Part shown: positions 1,107-56,540 of the stretch, piece after piece | Numbering within the stretch: the first letter of the stretch is position 1 | Layout: each line of letters opens with the position of its first letter | Made by a program: the position numbers and the translations under genes | Notes under the pieces: generated by a model | What the model saw: only the letters and a program-made list of their open reading frames with translations | Told to the model about the DNA's origin: nothing | Database searches by the model: none | DNA from: an uncultured Eggerthellaceae bacterium | GTDB taxonomy: Bacteria; Actinomycetota; Coriobacteriia; Coriobacteriales; Eggerthellaceae | Length of the DNA: 59,683 nucleotides | Assembly (NCBI GenBank): GCA_905234785.1 | Contig: CAJOIP010000005.1 | Location: 1-59,683, forward strand | Reading direction: 5' to 3'

Positions 1107-1193
1107 TGTCATTCCGAGCGTAGCGAGGAATCTCCCCCGATGCGACGTTGGGTATCCTTCTAATCCGCGCTACGCGCTCCGCTCAGAATGACA
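1107..1193. repeat. REP-like repeat overlapping the 3' end of elp3
   Basis: It starts TGTCATTCCGAGCG and ends CTCAGAATGACA, the same ends as the element at 430-547 with single-base differences. It fills the gap between two convergent genes. Its last bases (1183-1193) contain the elp3 stop codon and final residues on the minus strand, so the repeat has supplied the end of that protein. Confidence 0.7.
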
Positions 1194-2919
1194 AGTCTTT
1201 CTGCTGGTATAGGCCGTTGTCGATGAAGCCGAGCTTGCGATAGTATTCGCGCGTGCCGACGGCGCTGATGACGTTGATGCGGTCGTATCCCGCCTCCCTC
1301 GCGATTTCGCAGGCTCGTTCCACCAGTTGGCGCCCAAGGCCGTGATGCTGCGCAGACGACCCCTTGGCATCGACGGCCGTGGCAAAGCCGTAGACGTGCA
1401 CTTCGCGAATCATCGCCTCCCCCGCCCCGATCGGCAAGCCCGGATAACGCTTTAACGCCGATTCATGCGGCATCGACAAGCGAAGGAAGCCGGCGATTCT
1501 CCCATCTAGCGTTACCCACTGCAAAAACGCCTCGTCGGTCGCAGTCGTCTCGTACAAGACTTCGTCGAGCCGAAGGTCGTCCAGAACGACTTCCCCGGTC
1601 GCAATCTCCCTGAAGCGTATTTCACGCACGTCGCCAGCTTTGCCTTGCAGCGCCTCGTCGACCATCTGGCGCAGATTCGTCTTCTTGTTTCCCACGAGGA
1701 TGTCCTTGGCCGAAATGTCTCGAATCATCCGGGAAACGCGCGTGAACGGGCGCGTATGCAGCATGCAATCGCAGAGCACGTCGATGAGCTCTTCTTCCGA
1801 ATACGGCTTCCAGGAACCGTCCTCGAAACGCTCGACGAGCTCGGTTCCCCCGACCAACGCGCAGGGATACAGCTTCACCTCGTCGGGCGAATAGGCGGGA
1901 TCGTTTGCGAACACGCGGTAATCGCGCTTGTCCGATTCCGGCGTTGCGCCAAGCAGGTTCACCATGAAATGCGCGTGCGTCTTGAAGCCGAAAAGTCGGG
2001 CAAGCTCGAGCGAGCGCCGTATGGTCTCGACGGTCTCCCACCGCCCGTTCATTCGCAAGATGTCGTCGTTTACCGACTGGACGCCCAGCTGCAGCTTCGT
2101 GCAGCCGAGTTGTCGCAACTCCACGAGTGCCTCGGGCGTGATTGTGTCGGGGCGCGTTTCCACCACGAGGCCAACTACGCGATGCCGTGCTTCCTCATTG
2201 CGCGCTTGAACGGATTCAAGTAACAGGTCATCCGTAGGGGCGCTCTCCGAGCGCCCGTCAACCACGGCAGGCGGGCGCTCGGAGAGCGCCCCTACGATGG
2301 GAACCTGACTCTCTTCGACATACGCGCGAGCATTCCTGAGCGCTGATTCCCTCTCTTCCTCTGAATCGTTCAAGGCCCGGAACAGCTCGCTGACGAACCA
2401 CCGCCGGTACCCGCGCGGGTAATCGAGCCAAGTGCCTCCCAGCACGATGAGTTCGACCTTTCCCGTGTCATGGCCCATCTGCTGAAGCGTGCGCAGACGG
2501 CTTGCAACTTGCAGGTACGGATGGAAGAGGTTGCGCTCAGCCCGTTGGCAGGCGGGCTCGTCGGAGAGGTAGCTCTTCGGCATGCGCTCGTCGTTCGGGC
2601 AGTACACGCACGAATTCGCACATGGCCACGGCTTGGTGATGACCGTGATGGTGGCCACGCCCGAAGCGGTCCGACGCGGCTTCATTTGCATCGTTTTGAT
2701 AAAGCGCGCATCGAGGTCGTCGTCGACGTGCCATGATTGCCACACGGCACCGCCCTCTTTCCTCGCCTGCAGGTAATACGGCAAGATGCGCTTCTTCGCG
2801 AAGATGCGGCGCCCGTCGTGCGCGCGTGCGCTGTGCGCCCGTATGATGCGGTCGAGTTCGGACGGGCCGAGTTCCCGTTCCCGAAGAGCATCGAGTATGT
2901 CACGCACCGCTTCGTCCAC
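1183..2919 (-). CDS. elp3: tRNA uridine(34) acetyltransferase Elp3 (radical SAM/GNAT)
   Basis: This is a stand-alone bacterial Elp3, the enzyme that installs carboxymethyl-type groups on the wobble uridine of tRNA using SAM and acetyl-CoA. The radical SAM cluster cysteines are CANSCVYC (about residues 100-107), followed by LIVLGGTWLDYPRGY, VETRPDTI and LQLGVQS segments typical of Elp3. The C-terminal GNAT domain has GLGRQLVERA and EYYRKLGF. Start choice: GTG at 2919 lies 6 bases after a TACAAT box and would be leaderless; GTG 2949 or ATG 2943 would overlap the divergent gene. Using 2919 gives 578 residues. Residues ~209-229 are encoded by a 62-bp palindromic repeat and look like an insertion between the radical SAM segments. 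The divergent Trm9-like gene suggests a joint role in wobble-uridine modification. Confidence 0.9.
   Translation of the reverse strand: MDEAVRDILDALRERELGPSELDRIIRAHSARAHDGRRIFAKKRILPYYLQARKEGGAVWQSWHVDDDLDARFIKTMQMKPRRTASGVATITVITKPWPCANSCVYCPNDERMPKSYLSDEPACQRAERNLFHPYLQVASRLRTLQQMGHDTGKVELIVLGGTWLDYPRGYRRWFVSELFRALNDSEEERESALRNARAYVEESQVPIVGALSERPPAVVDGRSESAPTDDLLLESVQARNEEARHRVVGLVVETRPDTITPEALVELRQLGCTKLQLGVQSVNDDILRMNGRWETVETIRRSLELARLFGFKTHAHFMVNLLGATPESDKRDYRVFANDPAYSPDEVKLYPCALVGGTELVERFEDGSWKPYSEEELIDVLCDCMLHTRPFTRVSRMIRDISAKDILVGNKKTNLRQMVDEALQGKAGDVREIRFREIATGEVVLDDLRLDEVLYETTATDEAFLQWVTLDGRIAGFLRLSMPHESALKRYPGLPIGAGEAMIREVHVYGFATAVDAKGSSAQHHGLGRQLVERACEIAREAGYDRINVISAVGTREYYRKLGFIDNGLYQQKDLSF
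2234..2295. repeat. 62-bp palindromic repeat inside the elp3 reading frame
   Basis: Two perfect 24-base arms (2234-2257 and 2272-2295) flank a 14-base loop, TCAACCACGGCAGG. A second copy with the same loop core lies at 17523-17584 between iron-operon genes. Here it is read through by elp3 on the minus strand and encodes the residues ALSERPPAVVDGRSESAP. It does not break the frame. Confidence 0.9.
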
Positions 2920-2941
2920 CCGACCATTGTACAATGCTGTC
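2920..2941. promoter_or_regulatory. Symmetric divergent promoter with shared palindromic -10
   Basis: The palindrome ATTGTACAAT (2926-2935) provides a TACAAT -10 hexamer on each strand. On the plus strand 6 bases separate it from the ATG at 2942; on the minus strand 6 bases separate it from the GTG at 2919. Both transcripts would therefore start at or next to the initiation codon, and neither gene has a convincing Shine-Dalgarno sequence. No consensus -35 is obvious on either side. Confidence 0.55.
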
Positions 2942-3673
2942 ATGGACACGCAGACGATTCAAAGGCTTCGCCACCTTAACAACGAGTTCTACCGGCACAA
3001 CCACGCCTCGTTTTCCGCAACGCGGCAAAGCGCATGGCCTGGATGGGAGAGGCTCGCCGATCACCTGGGCCCGTGTGCAGGAGCGGTTCTCGACATCGCC
3101 TGCGGCAACTTGCGGTTCAAGTCGTTTCTCGAATCGCGCGGCAAGCCGGCAGGCGCCTACTACGCCGTGGATTCGTGCGTTGAATTGCTTCCCGAGCCGA
3201 CTTCCGCTGCGTTCCAAGAGCTCGATATCGTGAAATCGCTTTGCGACGACCGCTTGGCGGCTGACATCGCTGCGCCCGCATGCGACCTGACGGTGTGCTT
3301 CGGCTTCATGCACCACGTGCCGACGGCGAAGCTGAGGGGCAGGCTTATCGACGCCCTGTTGGAGATGACGCGCGAAAACGGGCTCGTGGCCGTTTCGTTT
3401 TGGCGATTCGCGCAAGACCAGAAAATGCTCGCGAAGGCGCAGGCGACCACCGAACGCGGCTGCGCCGATTTGTCGTTGGCCCTCGAAGAAGGCGATTACC
3501 TGCTTGGCTGGGAGGACGCTGCATGCGCCTACCGCTACTGCCACAGCTTCTCAGAAGAGGAACTCGACGCGCTCGTCGAGCGCTGCAAGCCCAGAGCGAC
3601 GCTCCTCGACCGCTACGAAGCCGACGGGCGCACGGGAAGCATGAACGGCTACCTCGTATTCCGAGTCGCATAG
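2942..3673 (+). CDS. Trm9/ALKBH8-like tRNA wobble-uridine methyltransferase (predicted)
   Basis: The 243-residue class I SAM methyltransferase has motif I VLDIACGNLRF, an acidic post-motif (YYAVDSC) and a GFMHHVPTAKLRGRL segment. The N-terminal signature FSATRQSAWPGWERL closely resembles the 'HFSSTRHTPWP' signature of eukaryotic Trm9/ALKBH8, which methylate cm5U34 to mcm5U34. The HH pair matches the IHH of that family. It is divergent from elp3 with overlapping promoter elements, which supports a role downstream of Elp3 on the same nucleoside. ATG 2942 is 6 bases after TACAAT, so a leaderless mRNA is likely. The substrate assignment is inference; a generic SAM methyltransferase remains possible. 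Confidence 0.65.
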   Translation: MDTQTIQRLRHLNNEFYRHNHASFSATRQSAWPGWERLADHLGPCAGAVLDIACGNLRFKSFLESRGKPAGAYYAVDSCVELLPEPTSAAFQELDIVKSLCDDRLAADIAAPACDLTVCFGFMHHVPTAKLRGRLIDALLEMTRENGLVAVSFWRFAQDQKMLAKAQATTERGCADLSLALEEGDYLLGWEDAACAYRYCHSFSEEELDALVERCKPRATLLDRYEADGRTGSMNGYLVFRVA

Positions 3674-4480: not shown

Positions 4481-4900
4481 CTACGCTCGGTAGAACGCGC
4501 GGTTGTTGGGGGTTTCGTCGACTTCTACCTGAGCGACGGGAAAGCCCTGCGCGGTCAGCTTGTCGAAAAACCAGCGGGAAAGGTTCTCGGCGGTCGTGCG
4601 GAAGGGCAGAACCTTCAACGTGAACCCCTCGCCTTCGAGCGCGGCGATGGTCTCGGGCTTCAGCGAGCCCTCTTCCACGAGGAACACATGGTCGAGCTCT
4701 TCGGCGGCATCGCGCACGGCTTTCTTGAACACGCCGAAATCGAGCACCATGTCGTGCATCGTGCCGCCTTGCTGAAGGCCTTCCTGCTCGAGCGTCACCT
4801 CGACGCGCCAACGGTGGCCGTGCAGGTTCTCGCATTTGCCGTAGTAGTCGGTCAGGAAATGCGCTGAATCGAACGCGGCTTCGGTATTCAGTCCGTACAT
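4481..4900 (-). CDS. queD: 6-carboxy-5,6,7,8-tetrahydropterin synthase QueD
   Basis: The 139-residue T-fold enzyme converts dihydroneopterin triphosphate to 6-carboxytetrahydropterin in queuosine/preQ0 synthesis. Zinc ligands are visible as the His in FDSAHFL and the two His of LHGHRW. LDHVFL provides the aspartate/histidine of the active site, and the C-terminal VEVDETPNN is typical. ATG at 4900 has AGGAGG seven bases upstream, so it is preferred over the in-frame ATG at 4927. No other queuosine genes are in the window. It is divergent from thrH. A second wobble-position tRNA modification gene near elp3 may be coincidence. Confidence 0.88.
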   Translation of the reverse strand: MYGLNTEAAFDSAHFLTDYYGKCENLHGHRWRVEVTLEQEGLQQGGTMHDMVLDFGVFKKAVRDAAEELDHVFLVEEGSLKPETIAALEGEGFTLKVLPFRTTAENLSRWFFDKLTAQGFPVAQVEVDETPNNRAFYRA

Positions 4901-4984
4901 ATGGCCTCCTGCAGGAATCATGTCCATTTTTCCTGCGGTTATTGTATCCTAGCCAGGTGCCAGAACGCGTAACGGGAGGTTTTC

Positions 4985-17522: not shown

Positions 17523-17584
17523 GCAGGGGCGCTCTCCGAGCGCCCGTCAACCACGGTAGTCGGGCGCTCGGAGAGCGCCCCTAC
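17523..17584. repeat. Second copy of the 62-bp palindromic repeat
   Basis: The arms 17523-17546 and 17561-17584 match those of the elp3 copy at 2234-2295 except for one base, and the loop TCAACCACGGTAGT differs at two positions. It occupies the 112-base gap between the FMN-binding lipoprotein gene and the downstream permease gene, just before the permease start. Confidence 0.9.
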
Positions 17585-56417: not shown

Positions 56418-56540
56418 TGCCCTTGCGGAGATAAAAACACGACCCCGTTGGGTAGTCGGGGTGCGCTTGCGGTTCGCCCGCGGCGTCAGTAACCTGCCTC
56501 CTTGGTTGTCCCTTCTCTGCGTGGTGACTACATACAAGGA
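56418..56540 (+). promoter_or_regulatory. Structured leader of yjdF, candidate NaMT (yjdF) riboswitch
   Basis: The ~120-base leader contains GACCCCG ... CGGGGTGC and GCGGTTCGCCCGCGG stems before a strong AAGGAGG site. yjdF genes in other bacteria are often controlled by the azaaromatic-sensing yjdF RNA motif. I cannot confirm the conserved core by eye, so this rests mainly on position and folding potential. Confidence 0.35.

Follow-up and report, generated by a model that had tools for sequence, protein, structure and literature searches.

A lone Elp3 and a divergent Trm9-like methyltransferase as a candidate two-gene route to methoxycarbonylmethylated wobble uridine in Coriobacteriia

In the genome of an uncultured, gut-type bacterium of the Eggerthellaceae, two divergent genes encode a radical S-adenosylmethionine (SAM) enzyme of the Elp3 family and a methyltransferase resembling Trm9 and ALKBH8. 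With a probability of about three in four, these two genes are considered here to constitute a compact bacterial pathway for the modification of the wobble uridine of tRNAs (U34), in which Elp3 would form 5-carboxymethyluridine (cm5U34) and the methyltransferase would then convert it into 5-methoxycarbonylmethyluridine (mcm5U34) without Trm112. They lie on a contig of 59,683 nt, referred to hereafter as the window, which is part of a 2.26-Mb genome. In broader terms, it appears likely, if somewhat less firmly so, that a two-gene pathway to mcm5U and its 2-thiolated form (mcm5s2U), associating a lone Elp3 with a Trm112-independent enzyme of the Trm9 type, replaces the MnmEG route in many Coriobacteriia and in some other actinobacterial lineages. 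Some bacteria would then probably make mcm5U, a modification known from eukaryotes and, in part, from archaea.

A bacterial Elp3 divergent from a Trm9/ALKBH8-like methyltransferase had been proposed in a preliminary description of this DNA, and both genes are indeed present where it placed them. The Elp3 protein scores 410 bits against the whole-protein profile TIGR01211 (curated cut-off of 350), its closest solved structures being the Elp3 of Dehalococcoides (9e-82) and of Methanocaldococcus (1e-79). It exhibits the features of the family, namely the radical SAM motif CX3CX2C (C110, C114 and C117 in the numbering of the 588-aa open reading frame, ORF), the motif QxxGxG of the Gcn5-related N-acetyltransferase (GNAT) domain, here QHHGLG, and REYYRxLG, here within REYYRKLGF. 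As listed, this ORF spans positions 1183-2949 of the minus strand; the true start is probably the GTG at 2919, giving 578 aa, because relatives begin at the aligned residue (MEELL..., METLL...) and because the longer frame would overlap the methyltransferase gene. From this alignment of the relatives with the GTG, the inferred start codons of the two genes are 22 bp apart. Regarding the methyltransferase, Pfam gave only generic methyltransferase matches, all below cut-off, and NCBIfam matched no family name; the nearest named relative (78% identical) comes from a metagenome-assembled genome of the Eggerthellaceae, and a single-sequence scan of the genome contigs recovered two relatives only.

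The distribution of both genes was surveyed in 199 genomes of the class Coriobacteriia and in 396 genomes of the phylum. In the class sample, the methyltransferase is encoded by 97 genomes and a strong Elp3 by 98, both occurring together in 97; no genome holds the methyltransferase without Elp3 and a single one (G096) holds Elp3 without the methyltransferase (Fisher p of about 2e-57 over the 199 genomes, a value in which kinship among genomes overstates independence). This sole exception, at locus L058, belongs to an assembly in 180 contigs. Among the 97 pairs, 90 are divergent and no more than 6 kb apart, three lie in tandem at a distance of about 1 kb at most, two are far apart on the same contig (G136, G163) and two are on different contigs (G018, G169). 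Besides, the two genes come and go together within some genera: in genus g12, both are found in G134 and neither in G112, and in genus g29, neither is found in G056 and both are found in the remaining sampled members. In the phylum sample, the methyltransferase profile matches 32 genomes and Elp3 matches the same 32, so that the co-occurrence with elp3, put forward as a check in the preliminary description, turned out to be almost perfect. Six of these 32 carriers fall in three distant families, where Elp3 belongs to another type, resembling that of archaea (594-605 bits), and the methyltransferase is only 19-23% identical to that of the window; four of the six pairs are also divergent neighbours. 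In a comparison of 25 neighbourhoods, picked because they contain the pair, nothing but Elp3 and the methyltransferase recurs and no additional gene is common to the whole set, in agreement with the two-gene route proposed at the outset. In one neighbourhood (L106 of G153), an ORF judged from its sequence to be cysteine desulfurase-like (positions 2230-3444) lies between the two genes in the orientation of the methyltransferase; this single, suggestive case could provide sulfur for the 2-thiolation (s2) of U34.

Profile comparisons point to Trm9. The coriobacterial profile, made of 31 sequences, retrieves from the PDB in first place the Trm9 of Yarrowia (5cm2; 3.4e-8, next match 2e-4), and the same structure comes first with the profile of the distant actinobacterial clade (1.8e-20 and near end-to-end, next match 1.3e-18) and with the joint profile (6e-17, next match 5.7e-12); the best solved match is thus a yeast Trm9 and not some unrelated methyltransferase family, as had been anticipated. 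The coriobacterial profile yields 66-86 bits for the distant clade, 66 for a haloarchaeal candidate from Natronorubrum and 35 for Yarrowia Trm9, vs. 24 for UbiG, 21 for CmoA, 10 for CmoM and 9 for BioC of E. coli. The Natronorubrum candidate shares the invariant residues and is also matched by the Yarrowia Trm9 sequence (7e-13). Searches of plasmids returned one convincing haloarchaeal Trm9 candidate, most other matches resembling unrelated methyltransferases of the same fold. Phylogenetic analyses are not decisive on this point: a tree in which the family is constrained to group with Trm9 is no worse than the unconstrained one (p of the approximately unbiased test, p-AU, of 0.51), but a grouping with CmoM is not rejected either (p-AU of 0.17). 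The distant actinobacterial clade joins Trm9 with a support of 84/79. The AlphaFold model of the methyltransferase has a predicted local distance difference test score (pLDDT) of 95.9 and retrieves with Foldseek an archaeal structure of unknown function at rank 1 and 5cm2 at rank 2. Taken with the conserved residues described below, the methyltransferase of the window very probably works like Trm9.

The signature FSATRQSAWPGW noticed at the outset does occupy residues 24-35 of the methyltransferase, whereas the accompanying motif, first described as IHH-like, reads MHH (residues 123-125). R28, W32, H124, H125, R198, H201 and N235 are invariant in the 31 relatives, which are mostly 40-50% identical, and the signature is therefore not a matter of chance. 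Fourteen positions are common to all the Trm9-like groups compared, namely T27, R28, W32, D51, G55, N56, H124, R132, W154, D185, W190, R198, Y/F199 and H201. In yeast Trm9 (ScTrm9), mutation of R29, H115, R241, Y243 or N271 impairs both tRNA affinity and kcat (PMC5372719). Four of these five essential residues have counterparts here, i.e. R28 for R29, H124 or H125 for H115, R198 for R241 and N235 for N271, the choice of the histidine and the position of N235 resting on motif alignment; the N-x-aromatic motif containing the latter is NGY in the window, NIY in the distant clade and NWW in Yarrowia Trm9.

The genomic context agrees with such a function. The genome of the window encodes tRNA-Lys(UUU), tRNA-Gln(UUG), tRNA-Glu(UUC), tRNA-Arg(UCU) and tRNA-Gly(UCC), the five of which carry mcm5U or mcm5s2U in yeast (PMC5372719), as well as the thiolase MnmA (340 bits), which is over cut-off in 19 of 21 genomes, i.e. 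that of the window and 20 relatives. In these same 21 genomes, neither MnmE nor CmoB is over cut-off in any. MnmG is over cut-off in one of the 199 class genomes; this sole occurrence (L041 of G071, 730 bits) is taken as contamination or recent transfer. Since MnmA and the five tRNAs are present, mcm5U34 is expected to be formed, together with mcm5s2U34 where MnmA acts, provided that MnmA accepts these tRNA substrates, as is presumed here. Near the pair, at 4481-4927 of the window, lies a gene for a QueD-like 6-carboxytetrahydropterin synthase, which belongs to the synthesis of queuosine, itself another modification of position 34.

As deduced from homology, the two chemical steps, their order and their substrates would be as follows. 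Through radical SAM chemistry, Elp3 would attach to U34, at C5, a carboxymethyl group derived from acetyl-CoA, a reaction known for archaeal Elp3 (PMC13315578), and would do so without the other Elongator subunits. The methyltransferase, acting without Trm112, would then methylate the carboxyl group of cm5U34 with SAM; R28, R198 and N235 may grip the anticodon loop and the HH motif may position the carboxylate. The likely substrates are the five tRNAs listed above, and MnmA, the ordinary bacterial thiolase, would add s2 in the Lys, Glu and Gln tRNAs to give mcm5s2U34.

Several observations weigh against this interpretation. Trm9 and ALKBH8 require Trm112. In the genome of the window, Trm112 (PF03966) was not found, as the preliminary description had predicted, though a very divergent Trm112 could escape such a search. 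Across the class, weak PF03966 matches occur in 42 of the 199 genomes, mostly inside long open frames and not tracking the methyltransferase; judged from open-frame length to be zinc ribbons in larger proteins, they were rejected as Trm112. The position of ScTrm9 Y243 is taken by Cys200, invariant in the coriobacterial family, and by Cys, Tyr, Phe or Val in the distant actinobacterial clade. As a pairwise query, Yarrowia Trm9 ranks the methyltransferase only third in its own genome (E of 0.085 vs. 0.0017 for the best match, all being weak), so that the kinship with Trm9 is remote and visible only with profiles. Fold by itself does not distinguish Trm9 from other class I methyltransferases; in a structural realignment over the whole PDB, generic class I methyltransferases dominate and Trm9 is not in the best 50, an uninformative result regarded as no evidence against the kinship. 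Regarding Elp3, the interdomain zinc-binding Cys cluster, described as strictly present in the Elp3 of bacteria and archaea but not in that of eukaryotes (PMC6367351), is absent from the coriobacterial proteins, which read DVREIRFREI instead of RCRCIRCREI; as eukaryotic Elp3 is also devoid of it, this cluster does not define the family. In addition, the radical SAM domain of coriobacterial Elp3 (L108-L127) contains a lineage-specific insert of variable length. Since neither Trm112 nor the tyrosine at position 243 was found, the methyltransferase is not filed as a strict member of the Trm112-dependent Trm9 family.

The alternative that best withstands the evidence, albeit an unlikely one, is that the wobble uridine modified by Elp3 is indeed the substrate of the methyltransferase, the product being something other than mcm5U, e.g. 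a 2'-O-methyl or a different end group on cm5U. Strict co-occurrence indicates dependence on Elp3 and not chemistry, Trm112 is missing from the genome of the window, and the invariant Cys in place of Tyr243 suggests a different pocket; yet four of the five residues holding cm5U34 in yeast are retained and the match between the distant clade and Trm9 covers nearly the whole sequence. It is decidedly more improbable that the methyltransferase modifies something relevant only where Elp3 works, such as a translation factor or the Elp3 protein, in the manner of other methyltransferases of the Trm112 type: class I enzymes of this fold have many substrates and co-occurrence by itself would be equally compatible, but the profiles favour Trm9 and the tRNA-binding residues are conserved. 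An enzyme of the CmoM type, methylating the carboxyl group of uridine 5-oxyacetic acid (cmo5U34) independently of Elp3 chemistry, was considered and rejected as very improbable; while CmoM performs an analogous esterification at U34 and a tree grouping it with the methyltransferase is not rejected either (p-AU of 0.17), CmoB, needed for cmo5U, stays below cut-off in the 21 genomes, CmoM reaches only its 10 bits with the profile and exhibits neither the TRxxxW nor the H[HQ]x6R motif, and the presence of the methyltransferase tracks Elp3. Finally, a generic methyltransferase lying next to elp3 by chance, as the sub-threshold Pfam matches and the silence of NCBIfam might suggest, is dismissed by the genome survey, given the 97/97 co-occurrence, the second independent lineage and the conserved divergent order.

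The coordinates of the pair, of its conserved residues and of the region between the two genes are gathered in Table 1. In this region, the palindrome ATTGTACAAT presents TACAAT on both strands, each six bases ahead of a start codon, an arrangement repeated in the nearest relative (L039); in L010, L028 and L040, a TACAAT or TATAAT hexamer is located 7-8 bases ahead of the methyltransferase ATG. A scan with the sigma-70 consensus revealed no -35/-10 pair. From the sequence, the palindrome is likely a symmetric -10 region shared by the two genes, from which both transcripts may start without a leader.

Table 1. Features of the elp3-methyltransferase locus (window coordinates; residues are those of the methyltransferase)
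Feature	Position	Strand	Basis
elp3, predicted cm5U34-forming radical SAM and GNAT (lysine acetyltransferase, KAT) enzyme	1183..2919	-	TIGR01211, solved homologues, motifs
Divergent gap with palindrome ATTGTACAAT at 2926-2935	2920..2941	.	Sequence; same layout in L039
Trm9-like class I SAM methyltransferase, 243 aa, predicted cm5U34 to mcm5U34 carboxyl methyltransferase	2942..3673	+	Profile, model, invariant residues
T27-R28-x3-W32 codons, N-terminal Trm9 signature (R28 = ScTrm9 R29)	3020..3037	+	Invariant in coriobacterial, distant actinobacterial, haloarchaeal and yeast sequences
H124-H125 codons (one of the two = ScTrm9 H115)	3311..3316	+	Alignment
R198-Y199-C200-H201 codons (R198 = ScTrm9 R241; C200 at Y243)	3533..3544	+	RYYH in 5cm2
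N235-x-Y237 codons (N235 = ScTrm9 N271 by motif N-x-aromatic)	3644..3652	+	NWW in 5cm2

A GC-rich inverted repeat (GTAGGGGCGCTCTCCGAGCGCCC and its complement) is found in frame at 2234-2295 of the window, in the variable radical SAM insert of elp3; a second copy is located at 17523-17584, and the repeat is missing from the Elp3 of L039. Elsewhere in the window, an intergenic tandem array (525-689) consists of 4.5 copies of a 37-bp unit with 98% matches, upstream of a 113-aa ORF (747-1088), and an azaaromatic (yjdF) riboswitch is recognised at 56421-56529 (68 bits).

According to a 2017 review, the Trm112-dependent methyltransferases had no detectable relatives in bacteria (PMC5372719), and a 2020 review assigned mcm5s2U to no bacteria and described it as absent from them (PMC7694415); besides, no report of a bacterial Trm9, of bacterial mcm5U or of the bacterial pair was found in the open-licence literature. 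If true, the pathway proposed here would break the rule that bacteria do not make mcm5s2U, would be the most compact version known of the Elongator-Trm9 route and would provide a minimal model of Trm9 and ALKBH8 that is free of Trm112. It would also show how split codon boxes are decoded in a lineage devoid of MnmEG, and would bear on a possible archaeal origin of the Elongator route in eukaryotes and in some bacteria. As a two-gene system with strict co-occurrence, the pathway lends itself to direct testing in gut bacteria that can be cultured.

Compared with the systems already known, the candidate pathway resembles the bacterial MnmEG-MnmC/MnmM route to 5-(carboxy)methylaminomethyl(-2-thio)uridine, i.e. 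(c)mnm5(s2)U34, in that C5 of U34 would be modified in tRNAs of split boxes and MnmA is shared, but the chemistry and the enzymes differ and MnmG is missing in 198 of the 199 class genomes. Like the CmoA/CmoB/CmoM route of E. coli to 5-methoxycarbonylmethoxyuridine (mcmo5U34), it would finish with the SAM-dependent formation of a carboxyl methyl ester on U34; however, the C5 group and the tRNAs are others, CmoB was not found and CmoM fails the family profile. Archaea carry candidate Elp3-Trm9 clusters (PMC2584109), and the archaeal Trm9 candidates of Haloferax and Sulfolobus also have a lone Elp3 as partner, clustered with them in S. solfataricus (PMC2584109, PMC5372719), the difference being that archaea have Trm112 and thiolases of the Tuc1/Ncs6 type whereas the genome of the window would use MnmA. 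The enzyme of the window departs from yeast Trm9 (Trm9-Trm112, PDB 5cm2) and from the methyltransferase domain of ALKBH8 in that no Trm112 was detected, Cys stands in place of Tyr243, the HH and RYxH motifs are separated by a longer linker, the sequence similarity is remote and its partner is a lone bacterial Elp3. It shares with them the class I fold, the TRxxxW, HH, VW/FW, Dx4W, RYxH and N-x-aromatic motifs and, as predicted, the substrate cm5U34, product of Elp3/Elongator. The Elp3-methyltransferase system would be best described as a bacterial version of a known pathway.

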